From IMG/VR virus record IMGVR_UViG_3300025818_000099, positions 1 through 32,527 of that record: a stretch of DNA of 32,527 nucleotides; one strand, written 5' to 3'. This DNA comes from a virus. The notes beneath the pieces are model-generated. The model saw nothing but the letters and a program-made list of their open reading frames with translations, searched no databases and had not been told where the DNA came from. Numbering within the stretch: position 1 is the first letter of the stretch; each line of letters opens with the position of its first letter. The translations under genes and the position numbers were made by a program. Positions 4,111-29,216 of this stretch are shown piece after piece.

Positions 4111-4135
4111 GCAAGAAAAAGCCCCCGAAGGGGCT
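4111..4135 (-). terminator. Intrinsic terminator after the small membrane gene
   Basis: Read on the minus strand: a 6-bp stem AGCCCC / GGGGCT closed by a TTCG tetraloop and followed directly by TTTTCTT. It begins seven bases after the stop of the gene at 4143-4307. Together with the promoter near 4355 it isolates that gene as its own short transcript inside the leftward head block. Confidence 0.85.
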
Positions 4136-4142
4136 GAGTGGA

Positions 4143-4307
4143 TCAGAACAGGAGCCCGAGAGTGAAGCTGATTGCAGCTACCCAAAGGGCAAGCGTGGTT
4201 TTTTCTTTGGATTCGTTCACTTGGCGCTCAAGCTCTGAAGTGATGGCAGCCTGCTGGTTGAGCAGATTGATCAGCTGCGCCTTAGTGGCGCGAGTGGTGT
4301 TGGTCAT
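4143..4307 (-). CDS. Small single-span membrane protein, 54 aa
   Basis: Starts MTNTTRATKAQLINLLNQQA, has a helical coiled-coil-like middle (ITSELERQVNESKEKT) and ends in one hydrophobic segment, LALWVAAISFTLGLLF, with almost nothing after it. This is a tail-anchored topology with the N-terminus probably in the cytoplasm. The frame is open to an ATG at 4349, but that ATG sits within a few bases of the -10 hexamer, so the ATG at 4307 is the likely start. The gene lies alone between its own promoter (4350-4380) and a terminator (4111-4135). The function is unknown. A regulatory or superinfection-exclusion role is possible but unsupported. Confidence 0.65.
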   Translation of the reverse strand: MTNTTRATKAQLINLLNQQAAITSELERQVNESKEKTTLALWVAAISFTLGLLF

Positions 4308-4324
4308 TTGTCTGGTGTGTTGGT

Positions 4325-4336
4325 GGGGTCGCCCCC
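4325..4336 (-). promoter_or_regulatory. Leader hairpin with GCGA loop ahead of the small membrane gene
   Basis: On the minus strand GGGG, GCGA, CCCC forms a 4-bp stem with a GNRA-type tetraloop. It is followed by a CA-rich stretch, CACCAACACACCAGACAA, directly before the ATG at 4307, with no Shine-Dalgarno sequence near the start. The same GCGA-looped hairpin occurs in two other leaders of this window (4571-4584 and 12806-12819). Confidence 0.55.
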
Positions 4337-4349
4337 GTCCCTCCATCAT

Positions 4350-4380
4350 GGGGTATACCCCAGGCTTCTGTCAAGCAAGA
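4350..4380 (-). promoter_or_regulatory. Promoter/operator with the perfect palindrome GGGGTATACCCC
   Basis: A 12-bp perfect palindrome at 4350-4361 contains a -10-like TATACC on the minus strand. The -35 is poor: CTTGCT at a 16-bp spacing. A perfect TTGACA lies only 11 bp upstream of the -10, too close for normal use. The core matches the four or five other GGGGTATACTCC sites of this window, which supports a promoter or operator. The downstream gene starts at 4307. Confidence 0.6.
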
Positions 4381-4556
4381 TTTTCGTTGGCCCAGTCCAG
4401 CAGCTCGTCTTTAATCCAAATGCCGTGTTCCCAGCCTCTTTCTTCCCAGCTGAGGTGCGGGGCGTACTCAGGCAGCTCGGTGTCCCAGATTTTCTCTAGG
4501 TAGCCGCCGCGAGCGTGGAGTGCTTCTCGTACGGCCTTGACGGTGCGAAATTTCAT
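4371..4556 (-). CDS. Small hypothetical protein, 61 aa
   Basis: Begins MKFRTVKAVREALHARGGYL, has an aromatic and acidic middle around residues 22-48, and ends DWANENLA. Two helices around a Trp-rich core are plausible. It is the first gene after the strong promoter at 4592-4620, and its last bases overlap the next promoter's -35 region. The leader carries a GCGA-looped hairpin and no Shine-Dalgarno sequence. I recognise no family. Confidence 0.65.
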   Translation of the reverse strand: MKFRTVKAVREALHARGGYLEKIWDTELPEYAPHLSWEERGWEHGIWIKDELLDWANENLA

Positions 4557-4570
4557 GGAACTTGTTGCGG

Positions 4571-4584
4571 TGGGATCGCTCCCA
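4571..4584 (-). promoter_or_regulatory. Leader hairpin with GCGA loop, 61-aa gene
   Basis: On the minus strand TGGGA, GCGA, TCCCA gives a perfect 5-bp stem with a GCGA loop. It lies between the -10 at 4592-4597 and the ATG at 4556. The bases between hairpin and ATG (ACCGCAACAAGTTCC) contain no Shine-Dalgarno sequence. Confidence 0.6.
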
Positions 4585-4591
4585 TATAAAG

Positions 4592-4620
4592 AGTATACCC
4601 CATGATGGCCACCCTGTCAA
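4592..4620 (-). promoter_or_regulatory. Strong sigma-70-type promoter overlapping the terL stop codon
   Basis: On the minus strand there is a perfect TTGACA at 4620-4615, a 17-bp spacer, then TATACT at 4597-4592 within GGGGTATACTC. The TGA stop of the terminase gene lies inside the -35 hexamer. This is the best consensus promoter in the window. It would start transcription of the small genes and possibly the head genes downstream. Confidence 0.85.
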
Positions 4621-5957
4621 TACAGCCTGATGCCCGTGCCGCGGCCAACGCCCTGATGCAGCGGGTTGAACTCACGCCACACCACATACCCCAGCGCATC
4701 AACCATGTGATCGTGCCCGCCTTCCTTGTCAGGCTCGCCCTTCTCAGTCCAGCTCTGCAGCTCCAAGCACTCGATCAACCGCGAACACCCCTGAGCCACG
4801 CTGAGCCGGACCTCGCCCTTGCCGTTTTCCAGCAGACCCTGAACAGCACTAACCCGATCACGAACGGCAGGATTTGATCGGCCTGACTGATTGCTGAACC
4901 CGTAGCTTTCCAGAATCTGAATGTCGGTGCGGCTGGCATTGGTGCTGCGGTTGCCACCTGAGGCGTCGGGGTACACATATATATGGTGCATCGGGTAACG
5001 CCGTTTCAGTTCCTGGGCCAGGGCGTCCGTATCGTGCGCGCCGCTGATCTCGTCCACCACTGTCAGCTTGTTGCCGCTTCGCACCGTGACGACTGCCGAC
5101 ATGTTGCCAACGTTGAAGTCAACGCCTACCCGCAACGGTTCACCACTGAAGTCAGCCACGCTGGCCACCACATGTTTGGCACGGTCAAAGCGGTCATACA
5201 CCTGGCCCGTATTCAGGTTGACCCACAGCCCTTCCAGATACGACTTGATTAGCTGCGGCGGGTAATTCGCCATCAGGCTGTCCACGAACCCAGCGGGAAG
5301 GTGCGGGTTGTCCATGGTGCGCGCACGAATTAGCGCCGTGTCTTCCCCAGCATTCCGGTCAAACGTGTCAAAGGCCCAGCCGTAGCCCTCCGGCGTCGTG
5401 GCGGCGTAGAACTGTTGGACATTGCCATCACGAAGACGGGCAAGCGCCATGCGGGTCGCCTGCTCCGCCGTGCGCTTATTCGCCGTGTCCGCTTCGTCAA
5501 AACCAATGGCACAGAGGTTCTGGCCGCGAATCCGGTTCCACGTCTCCATGGTCCGCAGAAGGATGGTGTGGCTGCCCTCCGCGAAATGCAGCGTGTATTC
5601 CGGCAACGGGCTAACGCGGAAGTCAAATGGGATCTCCCACTCTTCCAGCAGGTCATCCATCGTGCGCTGCAGGATGTCGCGCAGCATCGGGGCGACAGGC
5701 TCAAACAGGGCGCTGACATAGCCGATGTTGAGCGCTGCCATGTGAACAGCCTTGGCAACTAGGCCATGGGTCTTGCCAGCACCAAACCCACAGACAAGGG
5801 CGAGCTTGCGGTGTTCGGTGTCATCGCAAAAGGCGATCTGATGCGGCAGAAGGGTTTGCCGGATGCGGGCCAGGGTTTCCTGAGCAGGCGGGCCAGTGAG
5901 CTGAGCTGTTGGCGGTTCAAGGAGATTGCCGCCAGGTGCATTAGCCAGCAGGCTCAT
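4617..5957 (-). CDS. terL: Terminase large subunit
   Basis: 446 residues, the packaging motor ATPase and nuclease. Walker A is GFGAGKT at 58-63 with Lys62. Walker B ends IGFDEAD with Asp154 and Glu155. A coupling-type motif TTPEGYGWAFD follows near 188-197. The RNase H-like nuclease domain shows RVGVDFN (Asp280), YVYPDASG (Asp331) and DHMVDALGY (Asp420), the three acidic positions of the family. The protein docks on the portal, cuts concatemers and pumps DNA into the procapsid. Its ATG overlaps the terS stop (ATGA), a usual pair order. Its own stop overlaps the next promoter. The family call is firm; whether packaging is headful or site-specific cannot be told from this sequence. Confidence 0.95.
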   Translation of the reverse strand: MSLLANAPGGNLLEPPTAQLTGPPAQETLARIRQTLLPHQIAFCDDTEHRKLALVCGFGAGKTHGLVAKAVHMAALNIGYVSALFEPVAPMLRDILQRTMDDLLEEWEIPFDFRVSPLPEYTLHFAEGSHTILLRTMETWNRIRGQNLCAIGFDEADTANKRTAEQATRMALARLRDGNVQQFYAATTPEGYGWAFDTFDRNAGEDTALIRARTMDNPHLPAGFVDSLMANYPPQLIKSYLEGLWVNLNTGQVYDRFDRAKHVVASVADFSGEPLRVGVDFNVGNMSAVVTVRSGNKLTVVDEISGAHDTDALAQELKRRYPMHHIYVYPDASGGNRSTNASRTDIQILESYGFSNQSGRSNPAVRDRVSAVQGLLENGKGEVRLSVAQGCSRLIECLELQSWTEKGEPDKEGGHDHMVDALGYVVWREFNPLHQGVGRGTGIRLY

Positions 5958-6271
5958 AAATCAAAGCCGATGAGCTTGGCTTGAAGTTGAACAGCGTTCA
6001 GGGCGACTTGCGTTTGCCCGCGTTTATAAGCCGATTGTTCGTAGGTACGAAGTCTGCCGAGTGCTTCAGCGAGCCAAGCAGGGCGCGCCATATCAGCATC
6101 TTGTTCCAGGCGAATACGAGCGCGCTGAATATATTCATCAGCCTGACGTGCCGAACATTTCCACTGATTCGCTGAGAATTGAACGATCTGACCGCGTGAT
6201 TGTCCTTCGGTCAAAAGACCGTAAATCGTGTCAACACGGAAGTTCACTTCGGCAGCAGTGGAGCGCGCCAA
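5954..6271 (-). CDS. terS: Terminase small subunit (putative)
   Basis: 105 residues ending in FDL, with the stop overlapping the terL start. The N-terminal part (about 8-52), with EVNFRVDTIYGLLTEGQSR and a CSARQADEYIQRAR helix, looks like a helix-turn-helix DNA-recognition unit. The C-terminal half is helical and Ala/Gln-rich, suitable for oligomerisation. This layout is usual for small terminases, which bind the packaging site and load TerL. The first in-frame start is a TTG at 6271; a GTG at codon 9 is the alternative. No good Shine-Dalgarno sequence precedes the TTG. Position immediately before terL is the main argument. Confidence 0.75.
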   Translation of the reverse strand: MARSTAAEVNFRVDTIYGLLTEGQSRGQIVQFSANQWKCSARQADEYIQRARIRLEQDADMARPAWLAEALGRLRTYEQSAYKRGQTQVALNAVQLQAKLIGFDL

Positions 6272-6327
6272 GTTTGCGGGAAAAGATGATTGCTAACAGG
6301 ATAAACCCAAATTGGTGATGTGCGTTC

Positions 6328-6376
6328 TTTTGAGACGCGTGTGAGACAAGCGTGACGCAAATAGACGGGATGAGAC
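6328..6376. promoter_or_regulatory. Phased TGAGAC/GAC repeat array in the divergent control region
   Basis: Three exact TGAGAC copies (6331, 6342, 6371) and two degenerate ones (GTGAC at 6352, ATAGAC at 6361) place a GAC at 6334, 6345, 6354, 6364 and 6374, that is at steps of 11, 9, 10 and 10 bp. All face the same side of the helix. The array lies between leftward terS and rightward gene 6477. It is likely a binding site for a multimeric regulator. Two more TGAGAC copies (19904 and 19928) lie upstream of another leftward gene. Confidence 0.5.
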
Positions 6377-6400
6377 TGCCGAAATCGTGCGCTGGAATAC

Positions 6401-6429
6401 TTGCCTGCATTTTTCTTGATGGCTAATCT
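6401..6429 (+). promoter_or_regulatory. Candidate rightward early promoter
   Basis: TTGCCT, a 17-bp spacer and TAATCT, followed 47 bases later by the ATG at 6477. Only moderately close to consensus (four and three matches of six), but correctly spaced, in the only noncoding stretch ahead of the rightward block, and adjacent to the GAC array. Confidence 0.45.
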
Positions 6430-6445
6430 TTCCCCGTTGTTTCCC

Positions 6446-6460
6446 GGAAATCCCCGGAAG
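6446..6460 (+). repeat. Direct repeat copy 1, GGAAATCCCCGGAAG
   Basis: Lies in the leader of the 6477 gene. A near-identical copy, GGAAATCCCGGAAG, occurs at 6736-6749 inside that gene, just past the AT-rich segment. Together they bracket the AT-rich region and may be initiator binding sites. Confidence 0.4.
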
Positions 6461-6476
6461 AACCCGTTAGCCACCG

Positions 6477-7079
6477 ATGCGACTCGAACTTCAAATTCCC
6501 GATGACTTGGCCGATGATCTGGTCAAATTCAAGCCCAGAACCCTGTCCCTGCCTATGTTTTGCGCCTATTTATTGGAGCTAGGGGTTGACAGGGATGTTA
6601 CGCTGGCGGAGCGACCGAAGGGGAGCGAAGCCTCTATATCTTCTTCTAGTATTATTAAAGAAGAGTATTTAAGTATTAATAATAAGAACGGTCAGAAAGA
6701 AAATAACGAAAACCAGGATAAGCCGGTAAAAGCCGGGAAATCCCGGAAGCGTCCGGCATACAGCGAAGAGTTCGAGGAACTGTGGAAGCTGTATCAGTCC
6801 GCTCCTGATCGCGTCTCATCTCAGACAAAGCCAAAGGCGTTCGACGAGTGGAAGTCCATCGTTGGCCTTGAAGGCCCTCAGACCCTCCTACAAGCCGTTC
6901 AGAGGGCGATTGACGAGCAGAAGCGGAGGAAGACCGCCGGAGAGTTCGTTGGGAGCCTTCCTGACCTGTTTCGCTGGCTTCGGGACGGCAAGTACGAGGT
7001 CTATCTGGAGCAGCACGTCACGCAGGCTGCTGGGCGCGTGTGGAGCGCCGATCTTGGCTGCTGGATTGAAAACGACTGA
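6477..7079 (+). CDS. Putative replication initiator / DNA-binding protein, 200 aa
   Basis: First gene of the rightward block. Residues 1-45 (MRLELQIPDDLADDLVKFKP and onward) look like a ribbon-helix-helix or other small DNA-binding fold. Residues about 50-90 form a Ser/Asn/Lys-rich linker coded by AT-rich DNA. The C-terminal domain, about 95-200, is helical with EEFEELWKLYQ and KAFDEWK, a pattern seen in phage replisome-organiser proteins. An N-terminal DNA-binding part, a linker coded by AT-rich DNA and a C-terminal partner domain resemble lambda O. The initiator role is inference; no catalytic motif is present. ATG start with no strong Shine-Dalgarno sequence. Confidence 0.6.
   Translation: MRLELQIPDDLADDLVKFKPRTLSLPMFCAYLLELGVDRDVTLAERPKGSEASISSSSIIKEEYLSINNKNGQKENNENQDKPVKAGKSRKRPAYSEEFEELWKLYQSAPDRVSSQTKPKAFDEWKSIVGLEGPQTLLQAVQRAIDEQKRRKTAGEFVGSLPDLFRWLRDGKYEVYLEQHVTQAAGRVWSADLGCWIEND
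6631..6716. other. AT-rich segment inside gene 6477, candidate replication origin
   Basis: Over 6631-6690 only 14 of 60 bases are G or C, in a gene that is otherwise GC-balanced. The segment codes a low-complexity Ser/Asn/Ile/Lys linker, so its base composition is not forced by a folded domain. It is flanked by the GGAAATCCC(C)GGAAG repeats at 6446 and 6736. This resembles lambda ori, which lies within gene O. Origin function is inference. Confidence 0.4.
6736..6749 (+). repeat. Direct repeat copy 2, GGAAATCCCGGAAG
   Basis: Matches the copy at 6446-6460 apart from one C less. It is within coding sequence for KSRKR, just downstream of the AT-rich segment. Confidence 0.4.
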
Positions 7080-7084
7080 TCACC

Positions 7085-7372
7085 ATGAAGCTTTATTCCC
7101 CCGACGCCAAAGGCAAGTACGTCTGGCAGGTGGCTGACTCCAAGACCCGCCAGGTCAGCTTCAGCGTCACCACGACCCGTACCGCCCCGCCTGATGCCTG
7201 CTACGGGCATCCCATTGGCAAGTACGACGAGCAGGGCGTGTTCATGACCTTCTGCCCGAATGTCGGCGCTGACGACCCGAAGAGCCCACTTGCTGCCCGG
7301 TATGTGCTGCACCCGTTGGCGCCTGCTGAACGGGACAAGGCCGACCGCGAGCGCATGTGGCGCGAAATCTGA
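7085..7372 (+). CDS. Hypothetical protein, 95 aa
   Basis: Begins MKLYSPDAKGKYVWQVADSK and ends ERMWREI. The first half is beta-rich. Two Cys and one His in CYGHPIG and TFCPNVG (about residues 39-58) could bind a metal, but the set is incomplete. The C-terminus is a charged helix. It follows the 6477 gene by five bases in the same operon. I recognise no family. Confidence 0.65.
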   Translation: MKLYSPDAKGKYVWQVADSKTRQVSFSVTTTRTAPPDACYGHPIGKYDEQGVFMTFCPNVGADDPKSPLAARYVLHPLAPAERDKADRERMWREI

Positions 7373-7399
7373 CTTTTCCTACTTAGACCCCCTAGAGAA

Positions 7400-7735
7400 A
7401 TGACCCTCGGACCTCTGTTTGATTACTCAGCGGACGCCAGTCGGGCTGCCCGTGATAGCGCGATAGCAACAGTCGGCACGAATGCCGGTGCCGTGTTCAT
7501 GGATCAGGCCAAGGCTTTGATTGTTGAACGGCTGGCCGGCGTGGAGTGCCTGGCTGAAGATATGCGCCGTTTATGCGAGGAAGAGGGCATCACGCCCCAC
7601 CACCACAACGCATGGGGCAGCCTTACAAATCAACTGGTTAAGGCCGGCATTTTGATCGACACTGGCCGTTTAGCTAAGAGCAAAAGCGTTCGCAGTCATG
7701 CCCGCCGTCAACCTGTCTGGAAGGTGCGCGGATGA
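7400..7735 (+). CDS. Winged-helix-like hypothetical protein, 111 aa
   Basis: Residues about 40-105 contain helices followed by GITPHHHNAWGSLTNQLVKA and a GILIDTGR turn, then a basic tail ending PVWKVRG. This order of helices, a recognition-type helix and a beta wing suggests a winged-helix DNA-binding domain. The N-terminal 35 residues are Ala/Asp-rich. It lies in the early operon between small genes. The fold assignment is inference from pattern only; the target is unknown. Confidence 0.6.
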   Translation: MTLGPLFDYSADASRAARDSAIATVGTNAGAVFMDQAKALIVERLAGVECLAEDMRRLCEEEGITPHHHNAWGSLTNQLVKAGILIDTGRLAKSKSVRSHARRQPVWKVRG

Positions 7736-7775
7736 AATCAGCCGTTAGACACGAACAGATTCGGAGGCAGATTTA

Positions 7776-8225
7776 ATGGGCCGTTTCAAGCTGACGTTCA
7801 ACCCTGACGATGCTCGCCGTGTTCTCAGGCAAGGCATTGAAAAGGGCCGCTGGACTCTTCAAGATCTAGACAATCCACCGCCGGGTTGGGTTCTAAGCGA
7901 ACTTGACGCCAAGCGAATCCCAGGCTTCACGCACCGCCCCTACCGCAACCTTCTCAGAGATGAGCCCGCACCCGCAGAACGAGTCCAAATCACAGACCCC
8001 AGAGACTTCGCGGTGGCTCAAGCCCCTGCCAATCACGTTCAACGAGGAAGCACACCGTTATCAGTGGGAACCAACGGGGCAATGGCTGAACCACTCAGTC
8101 ACGAAGGTGTGCAAGGGAAGGAAGGATCCGTGGGCGATGAAGCGGATCATGGAGACGAAGCACATCTGGGAGCCGCGTGGGAAGGCGGTGCATTTGGCGT
8201 TGGAGACGTTTCTGACGACTGGTGA
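7776..8225 (+). CDS. Hypothetical protein whose 3' part overlaps the nuclease gene
   Basis: A good GGAGG lies eight bases ahead of the ATG. The first 65 residues (MGRFKLTFNPDDARRVLRQG through FTHRPYRNLLRD) look like a true domain of aromatic and basic character. From about residue 85 the frame overlaps the nuclease gene that starts at 7960, and the translation turns into Gly/Ala/Glu-rich sequence typical of an out-of-frame reading. Either the true product carries this tail, or the first domain is joined to the nuclease by a frameshift. I see no classic slippery heptamer near 7960. Real gene at the 5' end; end uncertain. Confidence 0.6.
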   Translation: MGRFKLTFNPDDARRVLRQGIEKGRWTLQDLDNPPPGWVLSELDAKRIPGFTHRPYRNLLRDEPAPAERVQITDPRDFAVAQAPANHVQRGSTPLSVGTNGAMAEPLSHEGVQGKEGSVGDEADHGDEAHLGAAWEGGAFGVGDVSDDW

Positions 8226-8640
8226 CCCTGGGGGCTTCCCGGCGGAATACGCGGAATGGGTGGAGCCGCTGATTGAGCATTCCGTGTGGGAGAACTACGA
8301 GGCGGTGGCGTGTGAATACCGCTTGGCGGACGTTGAACGCTCGATTGCCGGGTCGTTTGATTGCCTACTGCGGCGGAAGGATGACCACAGGCAACTGGTG
8401 CTGGTGGATCTGAAGACCCAGGGCAAGGCCGATTCCAGCCCGTACGACGTGAGCCAGCAGCTTGGTGGATACCTAGGAATGTTGGCTATTCACTGGCCGC
8501 GGCTGTATGTGCAGAAGGCGGGCGTGCTGTGGAGCCGTCCTGGCGGAACGACGCTGCAGAAGGTTGACGTTGACCAGGCGTACATCGAATGGCAGGCGGC
8601 TAGGGATGCGTTCCTGACGTTGAACCAACCTGAGTTTTAA
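7960..8640 (+). CDS. PD-(D/E)XK nuclease, RecB/Cas4-like
   Basis: 226 residues from the ATG at 7960. The RecB-family nuclease motifs occur in order: GKAVHLALE with His79, ACEYRL with Glu119, GSFDCLL with Asp134, VLVDLKT with Asp150 and Lys152, and VSQQLGGY with Gln167 and Tyr171. These give a complete metal-dependent active site. Such nucleases resect DNA ends as partners of annealing proteins, and a Rad52/Sak3-like protein is encoded at 10971. The frame opens at a TTG at 7903, but the first 19 residues look like shadow sequence. The 3' end is followed by phased 21-bp repeats, the first of which overlaps the stop codon. Confidence 0.85.
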   Translation: MSPHPQNESKSQTPETSRWLKPLPITFNEEAHRYQWEPTGQWLNHSVTKVCKGRKDPWAMKRIMETKHIWEPRGKAVHLALETFLTTGDPGGFPAEYAEWVEPLIEHSVWENYEAVACEYRLADVERSIAGSFDCLLRRKDDHRQLVLVDLKTQGKADSSPYDVSQQLGGYLGMLAIHWPRLYVQKAGVLWSRPGGTTLQKVDVDQAYIEWQAARDAFLTLNQPEF

Positions 8641-8712
8641 GTGACCTCATTTGGGGTTTAAGTGACCCCATTTCCCTTTTAAGTGTTGTCATTTTGGATT
8701 TAAGTGTTGTCA
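8635..8712 (+). repeat. Four direct repeats with an exact 21-bp period
   Basis: The core AAGTG occurs at 8639, 8660, 8681 and 8702, with exactly 21 bp between copies. Each unit begins TTTAAGTG and continues with a three-base variable part and TCA or CCA, usually followed by TTT. Copies 1 and 2 have GACC after the T, copies 3 and 4 have GTTGTCA. The last copy overlaps the -35 hexamer of the promoter at 8707. Two helical turns per unit put all copies on one face of the DNA, as for operators or iterons. Confidence 0.8.
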
Positions 8713-8736
8713 GCCCTTGCGCCTAGGGGGTATACT
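8707..8736 (+). promoter_or_regulatory. Promoter with GGGGGTATACTCCAT core
   Basis: TTGTCA at 8707-8712, an 18-bp spacer and TATACT at 8731-8736, inside the shared extended core of this phage's promoters. It drives the operon starting at 8759. The -35 lies in the last 21-bp repeat, so whatever binds the repeats should control this promoter. Confidence 0.8.
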
Positions 8737-8748
8737 CCATTCGCAGAG

Positions 8749-8760
8749 ATGCCCCCGCAT
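8749..8760 (+). promoter_or_regulatory. Start-codon hairpin ATGC-CCCC-GCAT
   Basis: A 4-bp stem whose right arm contains the first two bases of the start codon at 8759. The leader is only about 16 bases long and has no Shine-Dalgarno sequence. The hairpin may limit initiation. Confidence 0.3.
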
Positions 8761-9067
8761 GACCAACCCCAACCTTCTGCTTGGCGCCATCGCCAGCACC
8801 AAAGCCGAGATCAAGCGCCATGAAGACGCCCTCCAGGTGCTCATGGATGACTTGGCCCTGATGTACGCCACTGGCGAGCTGGACGACCTGAAAGACGACG
8901 ATGGCAATCTGGTCAGCGATGCCGTCAAGGTGTCCCGCTGCACCCGCACGAGTTGGCACTACAGCAATGCCGTGAAGGAGCTGCAACAGCTTGAGCAGTT
9001 CGAGGGCGTAGCACTTAAAAGGGAGACGGAGTATTGGCGGGTGACCCTGCCGAAAGCAGAGTTCTGA
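8759..9067 (+). CDS. Small coiled-coil-like protein, 102 aa
   Basis: Begins MTNPNLLLGAIASTKAEIKR. Two helical stretches (about 10-45 and 65-85) flank an acidic turn around residue 45 (ELDDLKDDDGN). The frame is open back to 8717, but the -10 of the promoter lies within that extension, so the ATG at 8759 is the start. The stop overlaps the next start (TGATG), so the downstream genes to 10913 probably follow in one operon. The function is unknown; the helix-turn-helix coiled-coil shape is common in small phage regulators and scaffolding helpers. Confidence 0.7.
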   Translation: MTNPNLLLGAIASTKAEIKRHEDALQVLMDDLALMYATGELDDLKDDDGNLVSDAVKVSRCTRTSWHYSNAVKELQQLEQFEGVALKRETEYWRVTLPKAEF

Positions 9068-9273
9068 TGCAGCCGACTCCCGTAGATGATCGGATTGAAG
9101 CCATCCTTGGCAAATACGACCTATGGGAGCCGGACCAATACCGGAACGCCGTTTCTGAACTCGCTGTCTACCTGCTGACTCTTACCGAAGAGGAAATTGA
9201 AGGCAGCTTGTATCACAAGCGGTTAAAAGACAAAGTGCACCTTGAAAACTGCTTCATGCGTTCTGATGATTAG
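9067..9273 (+). CDS. Small hypothetical protein, 68 aa
   Basis: MQPTPVDDRIEAILGKYDLW at the start, then helices with LTEEEIEGSLYHKRLKDKVH. Acidic overall. Translationally coupled to the gene before it by a TGATG overlap and to the next by an 8-base overlap. I recognise no family. Confidence 0.65.
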   Translation: MQPTPVDDRIEAILGKYDLWEPDQYRNAVSELAVYLLTLTEEEIEGSLYHKRLKDKVHLENCFMRSDD

Positions 9274-9763
9274 CGCAAATGCAAAGCGCCTCCGGGACAA
9301 AAGGCAAGAGGCCAAACAACTGGGTTTATGCGCCAACTGCTTCTATGCGCCTGCCCTACTCCATCGGCAACGTTGTCAACCGTGCCAAATGAAAGCCATC
9401 ATCAAAGAGGCTTTTAAGTTTGACCGGAAACGGCAGCTGCTCGGTTCAACTGAAGCTCGTGGATCTTGCTATGTCCCTCAATACACTCCCCAGGTCAGAA
9501 AGGAGTGGACAGCGGCAATCCTTGAGAAATGGAACGGGCAATGCTTTTACACCGGGCTTCAAATTGAGATTGGATCAACGGCTGGGCTCAGCTTCAAGCT
9601 GCCTGCATCACGGGCTGACGAATTTGGGCCTTCATCCGTTTTTCATCCTGACAATTTGGTTTGGTGCCATCAAGGCATCGCCCTCCTTAAGGGCAACATG
9701 ACAGCCACCAAATTTGAATCCTGGCTAAGCGCCGAGTTCCTGCCATTGCTTCAACGTCGATGA
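9266..9763 (+). CDS. Zinc-ribbon protein with an HNH/EndoVII-like domain
   Basis: 165 residues from the ATG at 9266; a TTG at 9242 is an alternative. The N-terminus has two CxxC pairs, Cys22/Cys25 and Cys37/Cys40, a clear zinc ribbon. The C-terminal half, GQCFYTGLQI at 91-100, LPASRADEF at 112-120, HPDNLVWC at 127-134 and KGNMT at 142-146, follows the outline of cyanophage-type HNH or endonuclease VII domains. The usual catalytic DH pair is not clear, so activity is uncertain. Its stop overlaps the rusA start. A nuclease beside a resolvase fits DNA processing. The zinc ribbon is seen; the HNH assignment is inference. Confidence 0.6.
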   Translation: MISANAKRLRDKRQEAKQLGLCANCFYAPALLHRQRCQPCQMKAIIKEAFKFDRKRQLLGSTEARGSCYVPQYTPQVRKEWTAAILEKWNGQCFYTGLQIEIGSTAGLSFKLPASRADEFGPSSVFHPDNLVWCHQGIALLKGNMTATKFESWLSAEFLPLLQRR

Positions 9764-10170
9764 TTTTCCAAGTCCAAGGGATTGAGCCAGCACCACAGGG
9801 CAGCAAGACGCATGTGGGGAATGGAATCATGCGCGAGTCGTGCGCTCGGGTAAAACCGTGGCGTTTCGCAGTCAGCCAAGCGGCATTAGAGACGGGCCAT
9901 GAAATGTTCACGGGTCCGGTTTACGTCGGGATCACATTTCTCTTCCCTCGGCTGAAATCTCACTGCAACACCAAGGGAATCATCAAGCCCAACGCGCCGT
10001 TTTACAAAATCAGCAAGCCTGACATTGACAAGCTTTGTCGCTCAACCCTTGATGGGATTACAGGTGTTCTGCTGAAGGATGACTCTCAGGTGGCAAGCCT
10101 CATGGCCACTAAGCAATACGCCAACGAAGGCGAACTAACTGGCGCAATCATCACCATCAACGCACTGTGA
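9760..10170 (+). CDS. rusA: RusA-like Holliday junction resolvase
   Basis: 136 residues. It opens with a RusA-type beta start and GIEPAPQGSKTH near residues 8-18. The family signature KPDIDKLCRSTLDGI is at 87-100 and is followed by LLKDDSQV at 104-111. Asp88, Asp90, Asp98 and Asp107/108 supply the acidic metal-binding set. RusA enzymes act as dimers that cut four-way DNA junctions symmetrically, which suits resolution of recombination intermediates before packaging. The gene is coupled to both neighbours by 4-base overlaps. ATG start. Confidence 0.9.
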   Translation: MIFQVQGIEPAPQGSKTHVGNGIMRESCARVKPWRFAVSQAALETGHEMFTGPVYVGITFLFPRLKSHCNTKGIIKPNAPFYKISKPDIDKLCRSTLDGITGVLLKDDSQVASLMATKQYANEGELTGAIITINAL

Positions 10171-10913
10171 AAGGTTCAGGCAAGCGGCGTATCTGCGTCA
10201 TCTGCGAATCAATTTTTGACATCCCACAGCTCAAACACGGACGTGATCGCAGAAGCAAGCGAATCACCTGCGGCCAGTCATGCCACTTGAAGCTGATTAA
10301 AAGACGGGCGAAACCATGGACCAAGGGCGAAATGGACATCATCGAAGAGATCAGCGCGTCAATGCCGCCCAAAAGGCTTTATCAGACCTATTGCCGTATG
10401 GCAGCAGATAGGGGCTATCCAAAGCGCACGGAAGCAGCGTTCAGGTGCAAGTTGGAGCACATGGGCATTCCGCTGATGCCTGAGCTGGACTTCTACAAGT
10501 TCCCTCAGCTGGCTGAGCTATTCAAAACGACTCGGCACACTGCGTATTCACTGCGGAAGCATGGGCTGAAGGCTGAGAAAGAATCAGACCACGCCAACCA
10601 ACCTTGGTTTGTGTCTCGCGCAGAGCTGAAGCGGCTTGCCCGTAAGAAGCCAGGCGTATTTCGTGACTTTGACCCTGAGGGCTTGTTTGTTGTGCTTGAG
10701 GATCGCGCCTTGGTTGATCTAATCCTGGCCCAGCCGAAGGTTCATAAGGCGCACCGCTACAACCCGACGCCATGCCGGTGCGTTGAGACAGGACAGGAGT
10801 TCCTGGGCTACCGCGATGCGGGAAGGTTCGCATTTGTAGACCCATCTGCGATTTACAACTCTTGCAAATACGGGCATCGAGCAGGCGGCTACCACTGGGT
10901 TGCACTTAGATAA
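10167..10913 (+). CDS. Multi-domain DNA-binding protein (zinc finger, Myb-like, HTH, NUMOD1-like)
   Basis: 248 residues with a GTG start overlapping the rusA stop. Cys10, Cys13, Cys35 and Cys39 form a probable zinc finger. Residues 50-100, WTKGEMDIIEEISAS onward, resemble a Myb/SANT helix set. Residues 113-135, PQLAELFKTTRHTAYSLRKHG, look like a helix-turn-helix. The C-terminus, CVETGQEFLGYRDAGRF near 205-221 and AGGYHW at 239-244, matches the outline of the NUMOD1 DNA-binding module of homing-type endonucleases. No nuclease core is visible. It could be a late regulator or a homing-endonuclease relic. Four possible DNA-binding units in one protein is unusual. Confidence 0.65.
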   Translation: MKGSGKRRICVICESIFDIPQLKHGRDRRSKRITCGQSCHLKLIKRRAKPWTKGEMDIIEEISASMPPKRLYQTYCRMAADRGYPKRTEAAFRCKLEHMGIPLMPELDFYKFPQLAELFKTTRHTAYSLRKHGLKAEKESDHANQPWFVSRAELKRLARKKPGVFRDFDPEGLFVVLEDRALVDLILAQPKVHKAHRYNPTPCRCVETGQEFLGYRDAGRFAFVDPSAIYNSCKYGHRAGGYHWVALR

Positions 10914-10928
10914 ATTTAGGGATATACT
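10900..10928 (+). promoter_or_regulatory. Promoter with GGGATATACTCCAT core
   Basis: TTGCAC at 10900-10905, a 17-bp spacer and TATACT at 10923-10928 within the shared GGGnTATACTCCAT core. The -35 lies in the last codons of the upstream gene. It drives the annealing-protein operon from 10971. Confidence 0.8.
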
Positions 10929-10934
10929 CCATGT

Positions 10935-10951
10935 AGAGGCTTCCCTCCTCT
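10935..10951 (+). promoter_or_regulatory. Leader hairpin of the annealing-protein operon
   Basis: AGAGG and CCTCT form a 5-bp stem around a 7-base loop, starting at about the transcription start. It is followed by CA-rich sequence to the ATG and no Shine-Dalgarno sequence. The position matches the GCGA hairpins of other leaders, but the loop differs. Confidence 0.35.
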
Positions 10952-10970
10952 CCGATCAAACCGCACACCT

Positions 10971-11675
10971 ATGACCGATTTCCCCAACCTCGGGGCTGTC
11001 ATCACTAAGGCCGACGTTGACACCAAAGGCACAGGCTCTTACGCCGCCGATTACGTCAACTGGTGCCGTGTGGCTCACCTTCTGCATGAGCACGCACCTG
11101 GCTGGCAGTTCCACCTAGTCCGCACTGCTGAAGATAGCCACGTCTGGCAATCGCCTAATGGCACCGCCTACGTCGTCGGTTGCTTCAGTGGTCCCGATGG
11201 TCTCCGTACGCCTGACTTCCCTCAGGCAATCATGGACAACCGCAACAATGCGATCCCATTTGAGAAGGTCACTGCTCGTGATCTCACAGATGCTCACCGA
11301 CGCTGCCTATGCACTGCAGCCGCCGCACAGTTTGGTCTGGCATGGCAGCTCTGGGCGCGTGAACCAGTCGAAAACCCGCACCGCGAGGAAGCAGCTAAGC
11401 CAGCTGTTCAGCAAGACAAGCCAAAAGCTGAAGCACCGGCTAAGCCAGCTGAAAAAGCAAAGCCAGCAGCAAAGAAGACCACCGGAGTGGTTTTTCTGAC
11501 TGATGACGAACTTGAAGCAGTCAAAGCATCCGTGAAGGCTTACGCCAAACGCGATGAGCTGATTGACGCTTTCAAAAAGCACTTCAAGATCATGGCTCCG
11601 CGTATCGCTGACCGAATCCAGTTCCCCGAACACAAGCAGTTCATTGATCAGTACATCGCTGATAACCCTGCATGA
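10971..11675 (+). CDS. Rad52/Sak3-like single-strand annealing protein (DUF1071-type)
   Basis: 234 residues. Residues about 24-130 match the pattern I know from DUF1071/Sak3 proteins: YVNWCRVAHLL at 28-38, a beta-rich core, PDFPQAIMDNRNNAIPF around 81-97, then RDLTDAHRRCLCTAAAAQFGL. A Lys/Ala/Pro linker (about 145-168) leads to a C-terminal helical domain. Such proteins bind single strands and promote annealing during recombination and repair. The recombination partners are encoded upstream: nuclease at 7960 and rusA at 9760. It is the first gene after its own promoter, so probably well expressed. ATG start without a Shine-Dalgarno sequence. Family call from pattern, no search. Confidence 0.7.
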   Translation: MTDFPNLGAVITKADVDTKGTGSYAADYVNWCRVAHLLHEHAPGWQFHLVRTAEDSHVWQSPNGTAYVVGCFSGPDGLRTPDFPQAIMDNRNNAIPFEKVTARDLTDAHRRCLCTAAAAQFGLAWQLWAREPVENPHREEAAKPAVQQDKPKAEAPAKPAEKAKPAAKKTTGVVFLTDDELEAVKASVKAYAKRDELIDAFKKHFKIMAPRIADRIQFPEHKQFIDQYIADNPA

Positions 11676-11854
11676 CCGCAAGACGGCCCAAAACTCCTGC
11701 TGAGATCAACCGCAAGAAAAACCGCTTCGTTGTAGCGGCCAAGCTTTCGGGCGATGTCCACAAAGAGCTGAGGGCTTATTGCGCCAAAACAGGGCAGAAC
11801 ATCAACCAAGCCCTGCGGCACATCATCACCACCTTCCTTTCAACTCATGGCTGA
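11672..11854 (+). CDS. Ribbon-helix-helix protein, 60 aa
   Basis: Residues 18-56 read as strand, helix, turn, helix: RFVVAAKLSGDVHKELRAYC then GQNINQALRHIITTFL, the usual RHH (CopG/Arc-like) pattern with a basic N-terminal arm. RHH proteins dimerise and place a two-stranded sheet in the DNA major groove. It overlaps the annealing gene by 4 bases. It is a good candidate to bind one of the repeat arrays in this window, but nothing links it to a specific site. Confidence 0.7.
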   Translation: MTARRPKTPAEINRKKNRFVVAAKLSGDVHKELRAYCAKTGQNINQALRHIITTFLSTHG

Positions 11855-12143
11855 ATTTGCCTTCCAAGCGAAGTTCCGAATTATGGAAAATCGCAACCGT
11901 AAAAACGACAAGGCGCCTGAGGAAAACCTCGTGGTTGACTTCACCGCCGAACAGGCCGTTAAGGCTGCGAATTACCTGATGACCATGGCCGAAAAGGCTG
12001 AGGCTGACGGGACCAAGATTCGCATCTACACCGGCAAAGACGAGTTCACGGAACAGACCGGGTTCTCGCTGTGGGGTGGCAAATGGGGCAACAAAGGCTC
12101 CTTTAGCCCCCTCAAACTTGACACCCCTGATTCCTCCTTCTGA
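11847..12143 (+). CDS. Hypothetical protein, 98 aa, acidic aromatic C-terminus
   Basis: Begins MAEFAFQAKFRIMENRNRKN. It contains strand-helix-strand elements (DFTAEQAVKAANYLMTMAEK, TKIRIYTG) and a glycine/aromatic region, GFSLWGGKWGNKGSF, before the tail LDTPDSSF. A short acidic tail ending in Phe is a feature of single-strand DNA-binding proteins, and the gene sits two places after the annealing protein. This resemblance is weak and the OB fold cannot be confirmed by eye. It overlaps the previous gene by 8 bases and the next by 1. Confidence 0.6.
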   Translation: MAEFAFQAKFRIMENRNRKNDKAPEENLVVDFTAEQAVKAANYLMTMAEKAEADGTKIRIYTGKDEFTEQTGFSLWGGKWGNKGSFSPLKLDTPDSSF

Positions 12144-12481
12144 TGTCAACCATGATCATTCTCACTGACGCCCAGGTTGTCGAACTGAACAACCGCATTG
12201 GTCAAATCCAACGCCTGATTGAATCCGCCCAGGTCATCAAAGCCGGTGGCGCGCCTCAGCCTGCTGCTGTCACCGAAGCCAAGCCCAAGGCTGCTAAGAC
12301 TGGTGTTACCCGTCGCCGTCGCCGCACTCTGCTGAACGAGGCAAAGGTGGTTGAAATCAAGACCCGCCTAGCCACCAAGGAACCAGCAACCAAGATTGCC
12401 AAGTCCTTCGGGGTTCACGTCAGTACCGTCAACAACATCAAGTACGGGAAGAACTGGGCACACATCAAGGTGCCTGTCTAA
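12143..12481 (+). CDS. Helix-turn-helix DNA-binding protein, 112 aa
   Basis: An N-terminal coiled-coil-like helix (about 5-35) is followed by an Ala/Pro/Lys linker and a run of five arginines at 57-61. A resolvase-type helix-turn-helix then covers about 64-105: AKVVEIKTRLATKEPATKIA, then SFGVHVSTVNNIKYGKNW. The coiled coil suggests a dimer. It may regulate the early promoters; the target is unknown. Start overlaps the previous stop (TGATG), and its end overlaps the end of the opposing gene at 12478 by 4 bases. Confidence 0.7.
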   Translation: MSTMIILTDAQVVELNNRIGQIQRLIESAQVIKAGGAPQPAAVTEAKPKAAKTGVTRRRRRTLLNEAKVVEIKTRLATKEPATKIAKSFGVHVSTVNNIKYGKNWAHIKVPV

Positions 12482-12720
12482 TCGCGCTGGTAATCCATCA
12501 ACTGCAGCTCAAGTGCTGCAATTCTGTTGGTGGCCTGCTGTAGCAAGGTCTGCTGCATAGACCAAGCACGGTACAACTGAGCGGCAATGGGGCCTGCGTT
12601 TGGGGTGTTCTCCAGGCGTCGGGCCTCTTTTTCAACGCTGAACTCTTGCGATGCATCACGCTTCATCTTCAGCCATTCCCAGGCGGCTTCGTCCATGGTT
12701 TCGGCGCATAGCACATTCAC
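12478..12720 (-). CDS. Small helical protein on the opposite strand, 80 aa
   Basis: The only clear leftward gene between 6477 and 15133. The product has DEAAWEWLKMKRDAS and a C-terminal coiled-coil-like segment, LLQQATNRIAALELQLMDYQ. The frame starts with a GTG at 12720; an ATG at 12696 is the alternative. The plus strand opposite it has no long ORF in any frame, which supports it. It converges on the HTH gene (4-base overlap) and is divergent from the operon at 12845, with the promoter core at 12766-12777 between. The function is unknown. Confidence 0.6.
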   Translation of the reverse strand: MNVLCAETMDEAAWEWLKMKRDASQEFSVEKEARRLENTPNAGPIAAQLYRAWSMQQTLLQQATNRIAALELQLMDYQRD

Positions 12721-12746
12721 GCTAGGTCGCTAGTCAAGATCACGAA

Positions 12747-12775
12747 TTACAACTTGCCGAATTTAGGGGTTTACT
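12747..12775 (+). promoter_or_regulatory. Promoter with AGGGGTTTACTCCCT core
   Basis: TTTACT at 12770-12775 lies in the dyad AGGGGTTTACTCCCT, close to the GGGGTATACTCC family. The best-spaced -35 is TTACAA, 17 bp upstream, a weak match. It drives the operon from 12845. The near-palindromic core could also act toward the leftward gene at 12720. Confidence 0.6.
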
Positions 12776-12805
12776 CCCTATGGAACGCCGCTACCATTCA
12801 CCCAA

Positions 12806-12819
12806 CCGGAGCGATCCGG
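12806..12819 (+). promoter_or_regulatory. Leader hairpin with GCGA loop, operon 12845
   Basis: CCGGA, GCGA, TCCGG is a perfect 5-bp stem with a GCGA loop. Sequence rich in C and A (ACACACCACACAAACCC) follows up to the ATG at 12845, without a Shine-Dalgarno sequence. It is the third copy of this leader design, here on the plus strand. Confidence 0.6.
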
Positions 12820-23344: not shown

Positions 23345-26300
23345 TTAGCCGACTCGTCCATACCCAGTTGCACTCCAGTTGAAGTTACGGGAAATGCTGG
23401 TGTCGCTTGAATTCCTGAAGTGGACCGTGAAGCCGGTGCCGCTGACGTTGCTGACCTCGAAGTAATCCCCGCTTTGCATGTTTTGCGCCGTGATACCAAT
23501 CGTCGGCAAAGTGCTATTTACTCCGCCCAGAACAGAAGTGCCGGTGAAGAAATTGTTGGCGAAGCTGACTGCTGTTGCCCCAGCGGAACTGGTCACGGTC
23601 GTTGTGCTCTGATCCGTGCGGCGCTGGAATGTCGCCTTGTATCCCAGCTCGTCGATCAGGATGTTCTGGTCAGCGTCGGTTGACTGGAGCTGAGCGCGGA
23701 ACTGGAATGCCCGCCCTCTAAACGTGCCATTGACGAAGTTCTGCCAGTCGCCCCAAGTAGGTGTGCCGGCGGGGTCGTCGTTGGTACGGCGCAGTTGCAG
23801 GGTTGCGTTCACCGAATCCACCACGTCGCCATCGAAGCTGTCCCAGTCATCGACGTTCTCGGTGCGGTTGTCCAGGAGGTCAGCCGGGTAGAAACCGCGA
23901 GTGACGAAGCGCCGCTGTAGGTCAACCGAGTAAATCGCCTCAAGATCCAGCGTGTCGTCAAACTCGTAAGTCGCGCTGTTCAGGACATCGCCAAGGAAAT
24001 CGAAGTTGGGCAGGTCATCAAAATCATCCTCGTCGTCAATATCGGCGTCGCCATCAATTGCCAGGGCGTCGTACTCATCGCTGTAGAAGCAATTAGTTTT
24101 TGTGCCTTGGAACGGGGGAACGTCTTGATCTTCCCGGCGAACTTGTATTGGGAACTCGCCCAGGGCATCGGGGAAGTCGATAATGACGCTGGTGGCGTTA
24201 GTGCTCTGGCGTCCGCCGTCATCCTCAAACTTGACCAGGACTTCGCCTTCAACGGCTGGGATCGTTGCTTCGGTGGAGTTACCGGCAATCGCCTCGATCA
24301 GGTCAACCGAATTACTCCAGGTGCCCGTGCCATCCGTCAGGCTGCTGTGGCGGATATAAACCTTGCCGCCAGCTACCACGTCCACATCAGTGGAAACGTC
24401 CCAGCGCAGTCGCCCGGTATTGGCGTTAATCCGCTCGAATGACAGGTTCTGAACATTGCCGGGAACAGCGGTTTTACCAATCGCGGTGAAAGTGAACTCC
24501 GTAAAGTCGGTCGATTGGCGACCCAGTGAGTTAATCGAGTAGATCTCAAAGACGTAATCACCGGCGCGGGTGTCCAGGATCTCAACGTCCGGTCTGCCCG
24601 CAATAACTTCCTGCCAGTTGTCGTTATCAGCCCTGTAGCGGACCTTGTACTGCGGGACGCCTTTGATCGACTGCCAGCTCAAGATGATCTTGACTTTTGC
24701 CTTGTCGTTCTGGGTGTAAAACTTCTCGCTTGCTTTCGGTGTGTTCGGTGGATCCGGGATCAGGTTGAGATTGGTGATCGTGCGGGTTTGAAGTTGGAAG
24801 CCGCGTTCCACATAGTCGTACTTGCTGGAGTTGTACTTCAGCCCGGTGATTTCATAGAGATGCCCTTCCTTTTCCTTGACGGTCAGGATGCGATATTGCT
24901 GGCTTTGAACTGAGTCAGTTTGCAGGATCCAGATGCTGTTTGCGTTCGGGGCACTGCTGAAGTCAGATGCAACAGTGATTGCCGTACCGCTGCGGCTAGA
25001 GATCGAGCGGGTTTCCATTGACCCGTCAGACAACAGCACCGATAACGTGCCCGTGTTCGTGGGCAAACCTTCCGCATCATCAACTGTGATGACCTGAGCG
25101 GTGGCGCTGCTAATCCTGCCGCCGTAACGAACGCCAGCCCGGACGGGATCTTGTACGTCAACAACTGCACCAGGTCGAATCAATGCGCCAGCATCAATCG
25201 AGGCGGTGAAGCTGATAACTTCTGTTTCCTGCTGTTCGCTGAACAGAATCCATTGCCCCAGTCGGTTGGCTTGACCGCGTGAAGTGCAGGCGAAGGCGCG
25301 AATCTGGGTCGTAACCACGCCGTATTTGGCGATGGCATCCCGGTCTTCCACAACCTCGTAATTCAGTTCACGGGTTTCAAGATCCAGGTATGCAACGACT
25401 GCAACCGTGTGGCGGGTCTTCAGGTCAGAGCCCGCATAGCTAAAGCCAGGCTCCAGCACGTTGGAGCGGTTGAACAAATAGCTCGAATCAGTTGGCTTGT
25501 CTTGCGTAATCGTTAGCGAGCCAGTGGACCAATACGGCTGACAACGCATGACCGAGCAAAGGTCATTGATCAGCTTGTATGCCTCGTATTGGTTTTGAAT
25601 TAGCGCGTTGCACTGGAAGCGTGGTTCTGTCCCACCAAAGCCATCATCGACAAGTCCGTTGCAGTATTGACTTGCGGAATAGAACGAAAACTTATCAAGT
25701 TGTGCTTCAACGATGTGATCGCCTAAGCCGTAACGCTTGCTAATTAGCAAGTCATACAAAATCCACGCGGGATCTTTACACCATTGGGCAGCGCCAAACG
25801 TCCCAGTCCATGTGCCGCTGTAGGTAACTCTGCCGGTATCAGAATCGACGGTGGCGTTATCGGGCAGTTTGACTTTGATGCCACGGATTCGGTAAGACCG
25901 CGCCGGGATGGAGTTGAACTGGTCTGCTGAAAAGCGGATTGCAGCAAGCGCACTGTTGGGGTAGCGCAGCTTTTCGTAGATCAGCTCGGTATAAGCGACA
26001 AAAAAGGTTGGGCTGACGTTTTGATCCGTGCTGTCATCTGAAACCCGGACGACACGAATATCGACGGGGAATGCTCCATCCAAAGTGATCAGATAATCCC
26101 GTTCGTATTTATCCGCCGTGCGACCGCTGATCGTGTCAGTCTTGACGGTGGTGAAGCCGCCGCCGTTGTACTGAACTTGGAACGACATTTCGACGCTCGT
26201 GCCAAGAACGTCACCTTCAGGTGTGCCGCGCTCCAAGCGGGAAATTGCCAAGCTGATGCGGACTGCATCAACGTTTGTGTCAGTAATCTGCCGGGTAACT

Positions 26301-28126: not shown

Positions 28127-28869
28127 CCGTTAAATGCGCCGATGCCGGGGAATCCGCCGAACGGCAATTCGTTATTTGACCCAAACCTAATCTGGCAGCT
28201 CGAAAGACGCTTGCCGCATACGTCCAGACCAGAACCTGTTACAGCCTTGTCGTTCTCGTCGAAATACTTGGTGCCGCTATAGCCGCACTCCGAGCCTTTG
28301 TAAATCCAAGGGCAAAGATTGGCGTTGCACTGACGTTTCGGAGCCCGGACTCCGGCGAGATCGAATACTGCCCCGAGCTCAAACTGGACTGCATTGCGAT
28401 CTTCGCTGACCTTACGGGCAACGTAATAAATCTCATCGGGCAGCTTGGCAGTAGCGTCCGGCGTCCCAAAAGGATTGGTGCCACCCTCAAAATTCACCGC
28501 GTCTATGTAGCGGACCAAAGTGCGGATCCGCGTCAGCTTTGCGCCAGTCAGATCATTGCCAGGGGTGGCTTCGTTGACGCCCAGCAGAATCGCAGTGATG
28601 CCGCCGAGCAGGTTGGAGACGGTGATCGTGGGGCGTGGCGGGCTGCCGCTTTCGGCGTTGTATTCAAAACCGTCAACTTCAATAGGAAACTTCTGATATT
28701 CATCGCCATCCCAAGTGATGTTCTGCAGCCCAGAGCCAACGTCGTTGATGCCTGCGTGGAATCGGTAGGTATAAGCAGACCCATGGATATTGGCAAACAG
28801 CTCCAGTGAGAACAGCTCGATAACGCTGCTCGGGTTGATCTTCTGAAGCTCGGAAAACGGGACTGCCAT
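28123..28869 (-). CDS. L: Minor tail protein L with iron-sulfur cysteine set
   Basis: 248 residues. The N-terminal part matches lambda gpL in outline ([20 protein letters not shown], then [18 protein letters not shown]). The C-terminal domain has five Cys: Cys181, Cys186, Cys195, Cys218 and Cys225, in [23 protein letters not shown] and SSCQIRFG. Four of these correspond to the [4Fe-4S] ligands known in lambda gpL. It builds the tail tip ring below the tape measure. 4-base overlap with K and 1-base with M. Confidence 0.9.
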
Positions 28870-29216
28870 TAGGGCTCAAAAACTTGAATAAAACGGGCCG
28901 TGATCGTGGCGCGATTGTTGTAGGGGATTGACTTGCTCCACTCTGGGCAGATCCACTTGTAAGAAGTCGTCTCGTCTAGCGGGGTCCAGTCAAAGCTGGC
29001 AGAATCCTCGGCGCGGGCATTCAGGAAAGTCTCAATCGTGTCCGAGTCGGTTTCGGAAACGTTCCAAGTCAAATCCCATTCTTTCGGATTCATGTGACTG
29101 GGAATCCCGTAAAGCAACCTCTGGGAATAACCGTCACCGAATTGAACAGTTCGAGTCCGTGGGCGACTGGTCTTTTGTGCGCCGTATGCCGGAGTGATTG
29201 AAGGGAAAGTGGCCAT
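28869..29216 (-). CDS. M: Minor tail protein M
   Basis: 115 residues. TVQFGDGYSQRLLYGIPSHM, EWDLTWNVSETDSDTIETFL, the FDWTPLD turn and KWICPEWSKSI form the Phage_min_tail pattern (lambda gpM), ending RFIQVFEP. It is a tail tip component between the tape measure and L. The gene starts within the TAATG overlap with the tape measure stop. Confidence 0.9.
   Translation of the reverse strand: MATFPSITPAYGAQKTSRPRTRTVQFGDGYSQRLLYGIPSHMNPKEWDLTWNVSETDSDTIETFLNARAEDSASFDWTPLDETTSYKWICPEWSKSIPYNNRATITARFIQVFEP

Follow-up and report, generated by a model that had tools for sequence, protein, structure and literature searches.

Why should several genes of one phage begin behind small hairpins whose stems differ and whose loop stays the same? 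The question is raised by virus record IMGVR_UViG_3300025818_000099 (32,527 bp, analysed over its whole length and referred to here as the window), in which a first-pass annotation had drawn attention to three such leaders behind dyad-bearing promoters. Judged by its gene content, the phage is a cyanobacterial siphophage: the window encodes a terminase, portal, J-type tail protein, tape measure and endolysin, and among named phages it is cyanophages KBS-S-2A and S-H1 whose terminases come closest (57-58% identity). The element in question combines a sigma70-type promoter and a dyad, which would serve as a phage operator, with a leader of about 30-60 nt. The first 10-17 nt of this leader would form a small hairpin whose loop is usually GNRA, and an unstructured C/A-rich stretch would then run to an ATG without a Shine-Dalgarno (SD) sequence. 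On balance, we lean towards the view that this is an exchangeable operator-promoter-leader cassette of cyanosiphophages, in which the 5'-terminal hairpin protects the mRNA and leaves the C/A-rich start site open.

The window holds five such cassettes, named A to E (Table 1). The three hairpins with a GCGA tetraloop (A, B and E) lie exactly where they had been placed, each 3' of a dyad promoter box and 5' of a C/A-rich stretch and an ATG. Cassette D indeed carries a different hairpin at the equivalent place, with a CTTC loop, and cassette C is a fifth dyad promoter that the first reading had missed, with a GAGA loop on a weak 3-bp stem at +1. Behind all five dyad promoters the hairpin begins at +1 to +3, the start sites being predictions placed from the -10 boxes; all five are purines. 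Taking the dyad as the -10 box in every cassette would put the hairpins at odd distances, and this was rejected for B and E. It lies over the -10 in A, C and D, in the spacer in B and over the -35 in E, and the likely -10 boxes of B and E are CATGAT and TACCAT. In relatives, the cassette B leader has TTGACA-18-CATAAT, and its spacer contains the dyad GGGGTATACCCC. Since the -35 boxes of A and B include the stop codon of the preceding gene, the units are packed end to end.

When the five dyad-promoter leaders were shuffled with dinucleotides preserved, the same tetraloop on stems of at least 4 bp was never found in three leaders (0/20,000 shuffles) and was found in two in 0.035% of shuffles, and the loop common to three leaders is therefore not due to chance. 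A covariance model built from relatives, whose seed already included the three GCGA hairpins of the window, returned only these three at E < 1e-4, and Rfam gave no match in the window up to E = 1. Fold energy alone was tried as a discriminator and discarded, as it did not separate the leaders from shuffles. The absence of an SD sequence had been thought specific to these leaders, which does not hold: a 4-nt SD match is lacking at all five cassette starts, but equally at 34 of the 41 other gene starts of the window (7/41 have one), some of which may be mis-called. Among 69 distinct leaders only two have an SD match, and C/A content averages 85% over the last 20 nt ahead of the start. The distinguishing trait of the cassette leaders is thus C/A richness, not SD absence.

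We then turned to relatives, sampling 80 terminase loci and 80 Sak-like loci, both picked without regard to the hairpin. A tetraloop stem of at least 4 bp at +1 to +4 follows 54 of the 90 distinct dyad promoters in these loci, and 46 of the 54 have a GCGA loop; at other sigma70-like sites of the same loci, such a stem is present at only 64 of 2,176, with no dominant loop. A loop-blind scan for a -10 box, hairpin, C/A-rich stretch and ATG, which took in all loci then collected (some of them chosen for GGAGCGATCC), returned GCGA 46 times, GAGA 13 times and any other loop at most three times. All these counts are of distinct sequences and not of independent lineages. The hairpin also keeps a set distance from the promoter: 34 of 45 distinct contexts have 7-8 nt between the -10 and the stem, and all 45 have 5-10 nt, whereas the distance from dyad to stem falls in three classes (11-16, 20-24 and 36 nt). 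Therefore, the position of the hairpin goes with the transcription start, and the dyad forms a module of its own. From the end of the hairpin to the ATG there are 14-30 nt, most commonly 15-17. A transcription terminator or attenuator, as in the promoter plus stem-loop (PeSL) cassettes of T4, would suit a stem-loop that shares a mobile cassette with a promoter and sits where genes are shuffled, but is scarcely credible for a stem of 4-6 bp that lies at +1, has a C/A-rich tail and no U run, and is followed by an ATG 14-30 nt downstream.

The suggestion that varied stems with kept pairing point to RNA structure is strongly supported by covariation, by the GNRA bias of the loop-blind scan and by strand specificity; compensatory stem changes, which the first-pass annotation had anticipated in related phages, are present in their contigs. 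In a preselected alignment of 41 distinct 30-mers, 34 double-change cells were counted in the helix (11.2 in shuffles), with a covariation score of 0.463 (shuffles 0.155; slid versions at most 0.095). In a more diverse, likewise preselected set of 26 that includes other operators, all five pairs show double changes, with 34 double-change cells against 10.0 in shuffles and a score of 0.697 (shuffles 0.168; slid versions at most 0.102). G-C to C-G flips occur at three stem positions, and the stem sequence is almost free. The complementary loop TCGC was never found behind a dyad, so only one strand of the element is read. A purely DNA-level element without an RNA role, be it an inverted-repeat protein site or a recombination site, is hard to reconcile with pairing that is kept while base identity is free, with GCGA confined to the transcript sense strand and with a fixed distance to the -10; although the leader block stays conserved from one non-homologous gene to the next, as expected of a recombination handle, we regard such an element as highly improbable.

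The hairpin leader is independent of operator type. In more distant relatives (L079, L080, L087, L146, L152 and L164 among others), promoters that carry a different dyad, TGGTATGCCA, are followed by the same GNRA 5'-terminal hairpin, C/A-rich linker and ATG, and there the stems are new (GGCG/CGCC, GCCG/CGGC, GCGG/CCGC and AGGC/GCCT). The gene E orthologues of L122, L124, L127 and L137 lack a dyad altogether but retain CCGGG-GCGA-CCCGG or CCGGA-GCGA-TCCGG. Two candidate operator binders are encoded in the window (Table 1). Of the Sak-like loci, 29 of the 35 with the GGGTATAC operator encode the Omega/Arc-like protein, against 0 of the 44 others, a distribution that follows kinship. Confounded by kinship in the same way, this protein and the resolvase-type one are found in most GGGTATAC loci and in no TGGTATGCCA or operator-less locus.

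Different genes are swapped in behind a constant leader. The terminase-portal gap is 29-39 bp in nine relatives (73-77% terminase identity). For the window and its close relatives it measures 374-3,212 bp and usually houses one or two cassettes. The leader at this junction is nearly constant, with 15 non-homologous small genes behind it: phages whose genes are unrelated share 71% identity in the leader and 31% downstream of it. In the full set of loci, such leaders precede about 27 gene families (28 clusters, one doubtful). One gene may also have several leader versions, since gene B, behind GGGG-GCGA-CCCC in the window, is found behind TGGCA-GCGA-TGCCA elsewhere and, more generally, behind TGGCA/AGGCA/GGGCA-GCGA hairpins in other phages, in some of them at a different genome site. 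The earlier idea of a promoter and stem-loop that move between genes is upheld in this form, and the cassette probably passes between genes as a unit; the conserved leader would then double as a homology block for swapping in new genes. The junction itself (window 4140-4620; L078-L085) is an insertion hot spot, where swapped small genes take up as much as 3.2 kb in the window's group.

At four loci (L073, L198, L287 and L318), a 117-nt leader takes the place of the hairpin; the site, at the end of the terminase large subunit gene, and the GGGTATACTCT promoter are unchanged, which supports the view of leaders as plug-in modules. This leader is found at the predicted +1 of many cyanosiphophage promoters that differ in operator and gene, including in S-CBS3 and, in a diverged form, in S-CBS1. 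It folds into helices including a pseudoknot, which covariation supports: seven pairs show double changes against 1.2 in shuffles. In S-CBS1, helix 1 has changed on both sides from CGGCC/GGCCG to GTTCG/CGAAC and the pseudoknot helix from GCGC/GCGC to GATC/GATC, with pairing kept in both. Rfam, tRNA and tmRNA searches with this leader gave no match. It looks like an undescribed structured RNA, possibly with a role in put-like antitermination or as a binder of ribosomes or of another factor. A variant of it (L324, L327, L330, L332, L333, L336 and L344) has another conserved block as its 5' part (GGGCGGACGGAAGCACCCCGGCG...GAGGAGCCTCCC) and keeps the 3' 80-nt core, as in a modular structured RNA.

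This larger leader, likewise at +1 and preceded by a promoter of that kind, raises antitermination for the hairpin as well, whereby a boxB-like or put-like 5' hairpin would load a factor onto RNA polymerase. The hairpin sits at the transcript start, and boxB also has a GNRA-like loop. However, the cassettes drive short units, with an intrinsic terminator after gene B, the stems are too variable for a boxB-type protein, and no boxA-like element was seen, though no search was aimed at boxA. We consider this explanation improbable.

What, then, does the hairpin do? mRNA is stabilised by 5' secondary structure, since RppH and RNase E require single-stranded 5' ends (PMC3997798), and both RNase E and RNase J are present in cyanobacteria (PMC10989914). 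Moreover, cyanophage P-SSP7 raises host RNase E, and antisense RNAs cover the phage's own transcripts and guard them against cleavage (PMC9692554). Therefore, message protection is the most likely role, and the hairpin probably shields the message. Starting at +1 to +3, it would leave too few unpaired 5' nucleotides for 5'-end-dependent decay, so that both 5' sensing by RNase E and 5'-3' exonuclease attack by RNase J would be blocked and the mRNA stabilised, and the C/A-rich linker would remain open for SD-independent ribosome entry. In the leaders of orthologous gene D, the 5'-terminal hairpin is mostly kept and the loops are mostly non-GNRA, which favours protection over the reading of the loop by a protein.

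Several points weigh against protection by the hairpin. Close RppH homologues are absent from cyanobacteria (PMC10989914), and the 5' decay route there is therefore uncertain. The position of the hairpin rests on predicted start sites. Fold energies are unexceptional relative to shuffles, except for B; the fold of cassette C is not governed by its 3-bp stem, and in the E leader an alternative fold competes. The covariation scores are conditioned, both alignments having been preselected for at least four pairs and a GNRA loop, and the double-change cells are not independent lineages; the dyad-promoter count, the loop-blind scan and the strand test are less conditioned. Finally, GCGA is preferred beyond what stability alone would require, which leaves room for recognition of the loop by a protein. 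A phage or host protein might read the GNRA hairpin as an RNA-level operator, tuning translation or stability of all cassette genes jointly. Besides the strong bias to GCGA or GAGA, the hairpin ends 14-30 nt 5' of the ATG, adjoining the 30S subunit binding site, and its use by many small genes resembles a regulon. Yet the stem sequence is almost free, including the G-C to C-G flips, gene D orthologues retain the hairpin with other loops, and no candidate gene for an RNA-binding protein was identified; we thus hold such an operator to be unlikely, if by no means far-fetched.

Going beyond the protective hairpin, we put forward more tentatively, and with somewhat less than even confidence, that in cyanosiphophages interchangeable 5'-terminal RNA leader modules (the 12-16 nt GNRA hairpin and the 117-nt pseudoknotted RNA) plug into interchangeable operator-promoters exactly at +1. 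Such a phage 'expression adaptor' system may give newly acquired genes ready-made control and protection, act at the RNA level and drive gene turnover. Covariation and the less conditioned counts show, apart from this, that a phage lineage carries a portable promoter-leader unit, with an RNA structure fixed to the transcription start and independent of both operator and downstream gene. It would link gene swapping in phages to RNA-level protection, bears on the survival of cyanophage messages in the face of host RNase E and RNase J, and offers a search handle for recently acquired phage genes.

The closest known system is the PeSL of T4-type phages (Arbiol 2010; Comeau 2014), whose stem-loops are described as terminators. 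The likeness, proposed at the outset, stands as an analogy: both are small promoter and stem-loop blocks, repeated in shuffling regions with swapped adjoining genes and thought in T4-type phages to mediate the exchange of non-essential genes, and the promoter is sigma70-like here too (TTGACA-17-TATACT in A; TTGACA-18-CATGAT in B). It fails for the stem-loop, which here is the 5' end of the mRNA and part of the leader, with a GNRA loop and no U-tract, and is no terminator. Phage morons are extra small genes that bring a promoter and a terminator of their own and sit between conserved late genes. The small extra genes here likewise have their own promoter, but successive inserts share one conserved promoter-leader block. 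With lambda boxB and HK022 put, the likeness is limited to position and loop type. In cluster K mycobacteriophages, SAS is a fixed 13-bp element, GGGATAGGAGCCC, containing AGGAG (SD) at the start codon, and ESAS consists of 17-bp imperfect repeats (PMC3203893). These, too, are conserved leader elements directly 5' of many unrelated small genes and in part inverted repeats, whereas here the sequence varies, the structure is kept and the C/A-rich leaders lack an SD. The mRNA-stabilising 5'-terminal stem-loops of ompA and papA (Emory 1992, as cited in PMC3997798) lie, as described there, at or a few nt from the 5' end, comparable to the predicted +1 to +3 here, and the ompA type would work in the same way as the mechanism proposed above; they are leaders of single host genes and are not known to be mobile, in contrast to a portable leader with a GNRA loop serving many genes in cyanophages. 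In haloarchaeal virus HGTV-1, a TATA-box and inverted-repeat motif, likened to PeSL by its authors, precedes most open reading frames of one genome arm (PMC3950731). Compared by motif description only, it shares a conserved promoter and inverted repeat with our cassettes and differs in having an archaeal promoter.

Table 1. Features of the five cassettes, the genes they precede, candidate operator binders and the 117-nt leader (window positions unless a locus is named; start sites are predicted).
Feature	Position	Strand	Comment
Cassette A -35 TTGACA	4615-4620	-	contains TGA stop codon of terminase large subunit gene; 17-nt spacer to TATACT
Cassette A -10 TATACT	4592-4597	-	within dyad GGGGTATACTC (4590-4600); +1 = A4585
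Cassette A 5'-terminal hairpin TGGGA-GCGA-TCCCA	4571-4584	-	+2 to +15
Gene A, 61 aa	4371-4556	-	no family match; homologues at four further loci likewise behind GCGA hairpin
Cassette B -35 TTGACA	4369-4374	-	contains stop codon of gene A
Cassette B putative operator dyad GGGGTATACCCC	4350-4361	-	inside promoter spacer
Cassette B -10 CATGAT (relatives: CATAAT)	4345-4350	-	18-nt spacer; +1 = A4338
Cassette B 5'-terminal hairpin GGGG-GCGA-CCCC	4325-4336	-	from +3
Gene B, 54 aa	4143-4307	-	no significant family
Intrinsic terminator AGCCCC-TTCG-GGGGCTTTTTC	4113-4135	-	3' of gene B; read directly from sequence
Cassette C -35 TTGTCA	8707-8712	+	
Cassette C -10 TATACT	8731-8736	+	in dyad GGGGGTATACTCC (8728-8738); +1 = G8743
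Cassette C weak 5'-terminal hairpin GCA-GAGA-TGC	8743-8752	+	relatives: GCA-GCGA-TGC; unstable when folded alone
Cassette D -35 TTGCAC	10900-10905	+	
Cassette D -10 TATACT	10923-10928	+	in dyad GGGATATACTCC (10920-10930); +1 = A10935
Cassette D 5'-terminal hairpin GAGG-CTTC-CCTC	10936-10947	+	
Gene D, Sak-like single-stranded DNA annealing protein	10971-11675	+	behind cassette D
Omega/Arc-like ribbon-helix-helix protein, 60 aa	11672-11854	+	weak match; candidate binder of dyad GGGGTATACCCC
Small resolvase-helix-turn-helix protein	12143-12481		candidate operator binder
Cassette E dyad GGGGTTTACTCC	12766-12777	+	covers -35 TTTACT (12770-12775)
Cassette E -10 TACCAT	12792-12797	+	16-nt spacer; +1 = A12804
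Cassette E 5'-terminal hairpin CCGGA-GCGA-TCCGG	12806-12819	+	from +3
Gene E, 45 aa	12845-12982	+	no family match
117-nt leader	L073 11365-11481	+	
117-nt leader	L112 (S-CBS3) ~28791-28907	-	
117-nt leader	L113 (S-CBS1) 26090-26173	-	
117-nt leader	L286-L346		

Plain BLAST of the leader against phage records found no match, nor did the covariance model on the isolates KBS-S-2A, S-H1, S-CBS1 and S-CBS3 or a pattern search of S-LBS1 and MED4-117. The strict pattern TATACTC..GGAGCGATCC also matched unrelated phages, at chance-like sites. A pattern scan of cellular genomes yielded 29 matches scattered across unrelated taxa, fewer than the 100 or so roughly estimated for chance, with 0 in Synechococcus or Cyanobium and no prophage or host copy, and a terminase scan of cellular genomes recovered no relative. 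S-H1 has a 5' hairpin with another loop in the equivalent position (GGGC-ACGA-GCCC at 3,533, minus strand). S-CBS3 (L112, 26082-26127, minus strand) has CCGGG-GCAG-CCCGG at 26,120 behind TGGTATGCCATACT, at a promoter with the TGGTATGCCA operator, and is an isolate with a cultured host, Synechococcus CB0202. Of these loops outside the GNRA class, GCAG also occurs in L180 and L184, and ACGA also in L187.

The window further encodes RusA, an exonuclease and several helix-turn-helix or ribbon-helix-helix proteins besides the Sak-like annealing protein. One relative of the window phage carries a group I intron (RF00028, E 3e-14; L073 16666-16911). Just 5' of promoter C, window positions 8635-8715 hold four imperfect tandem units of about 20 bp each, starting TTTAAGTG, which are possible iterons or a regulator array.

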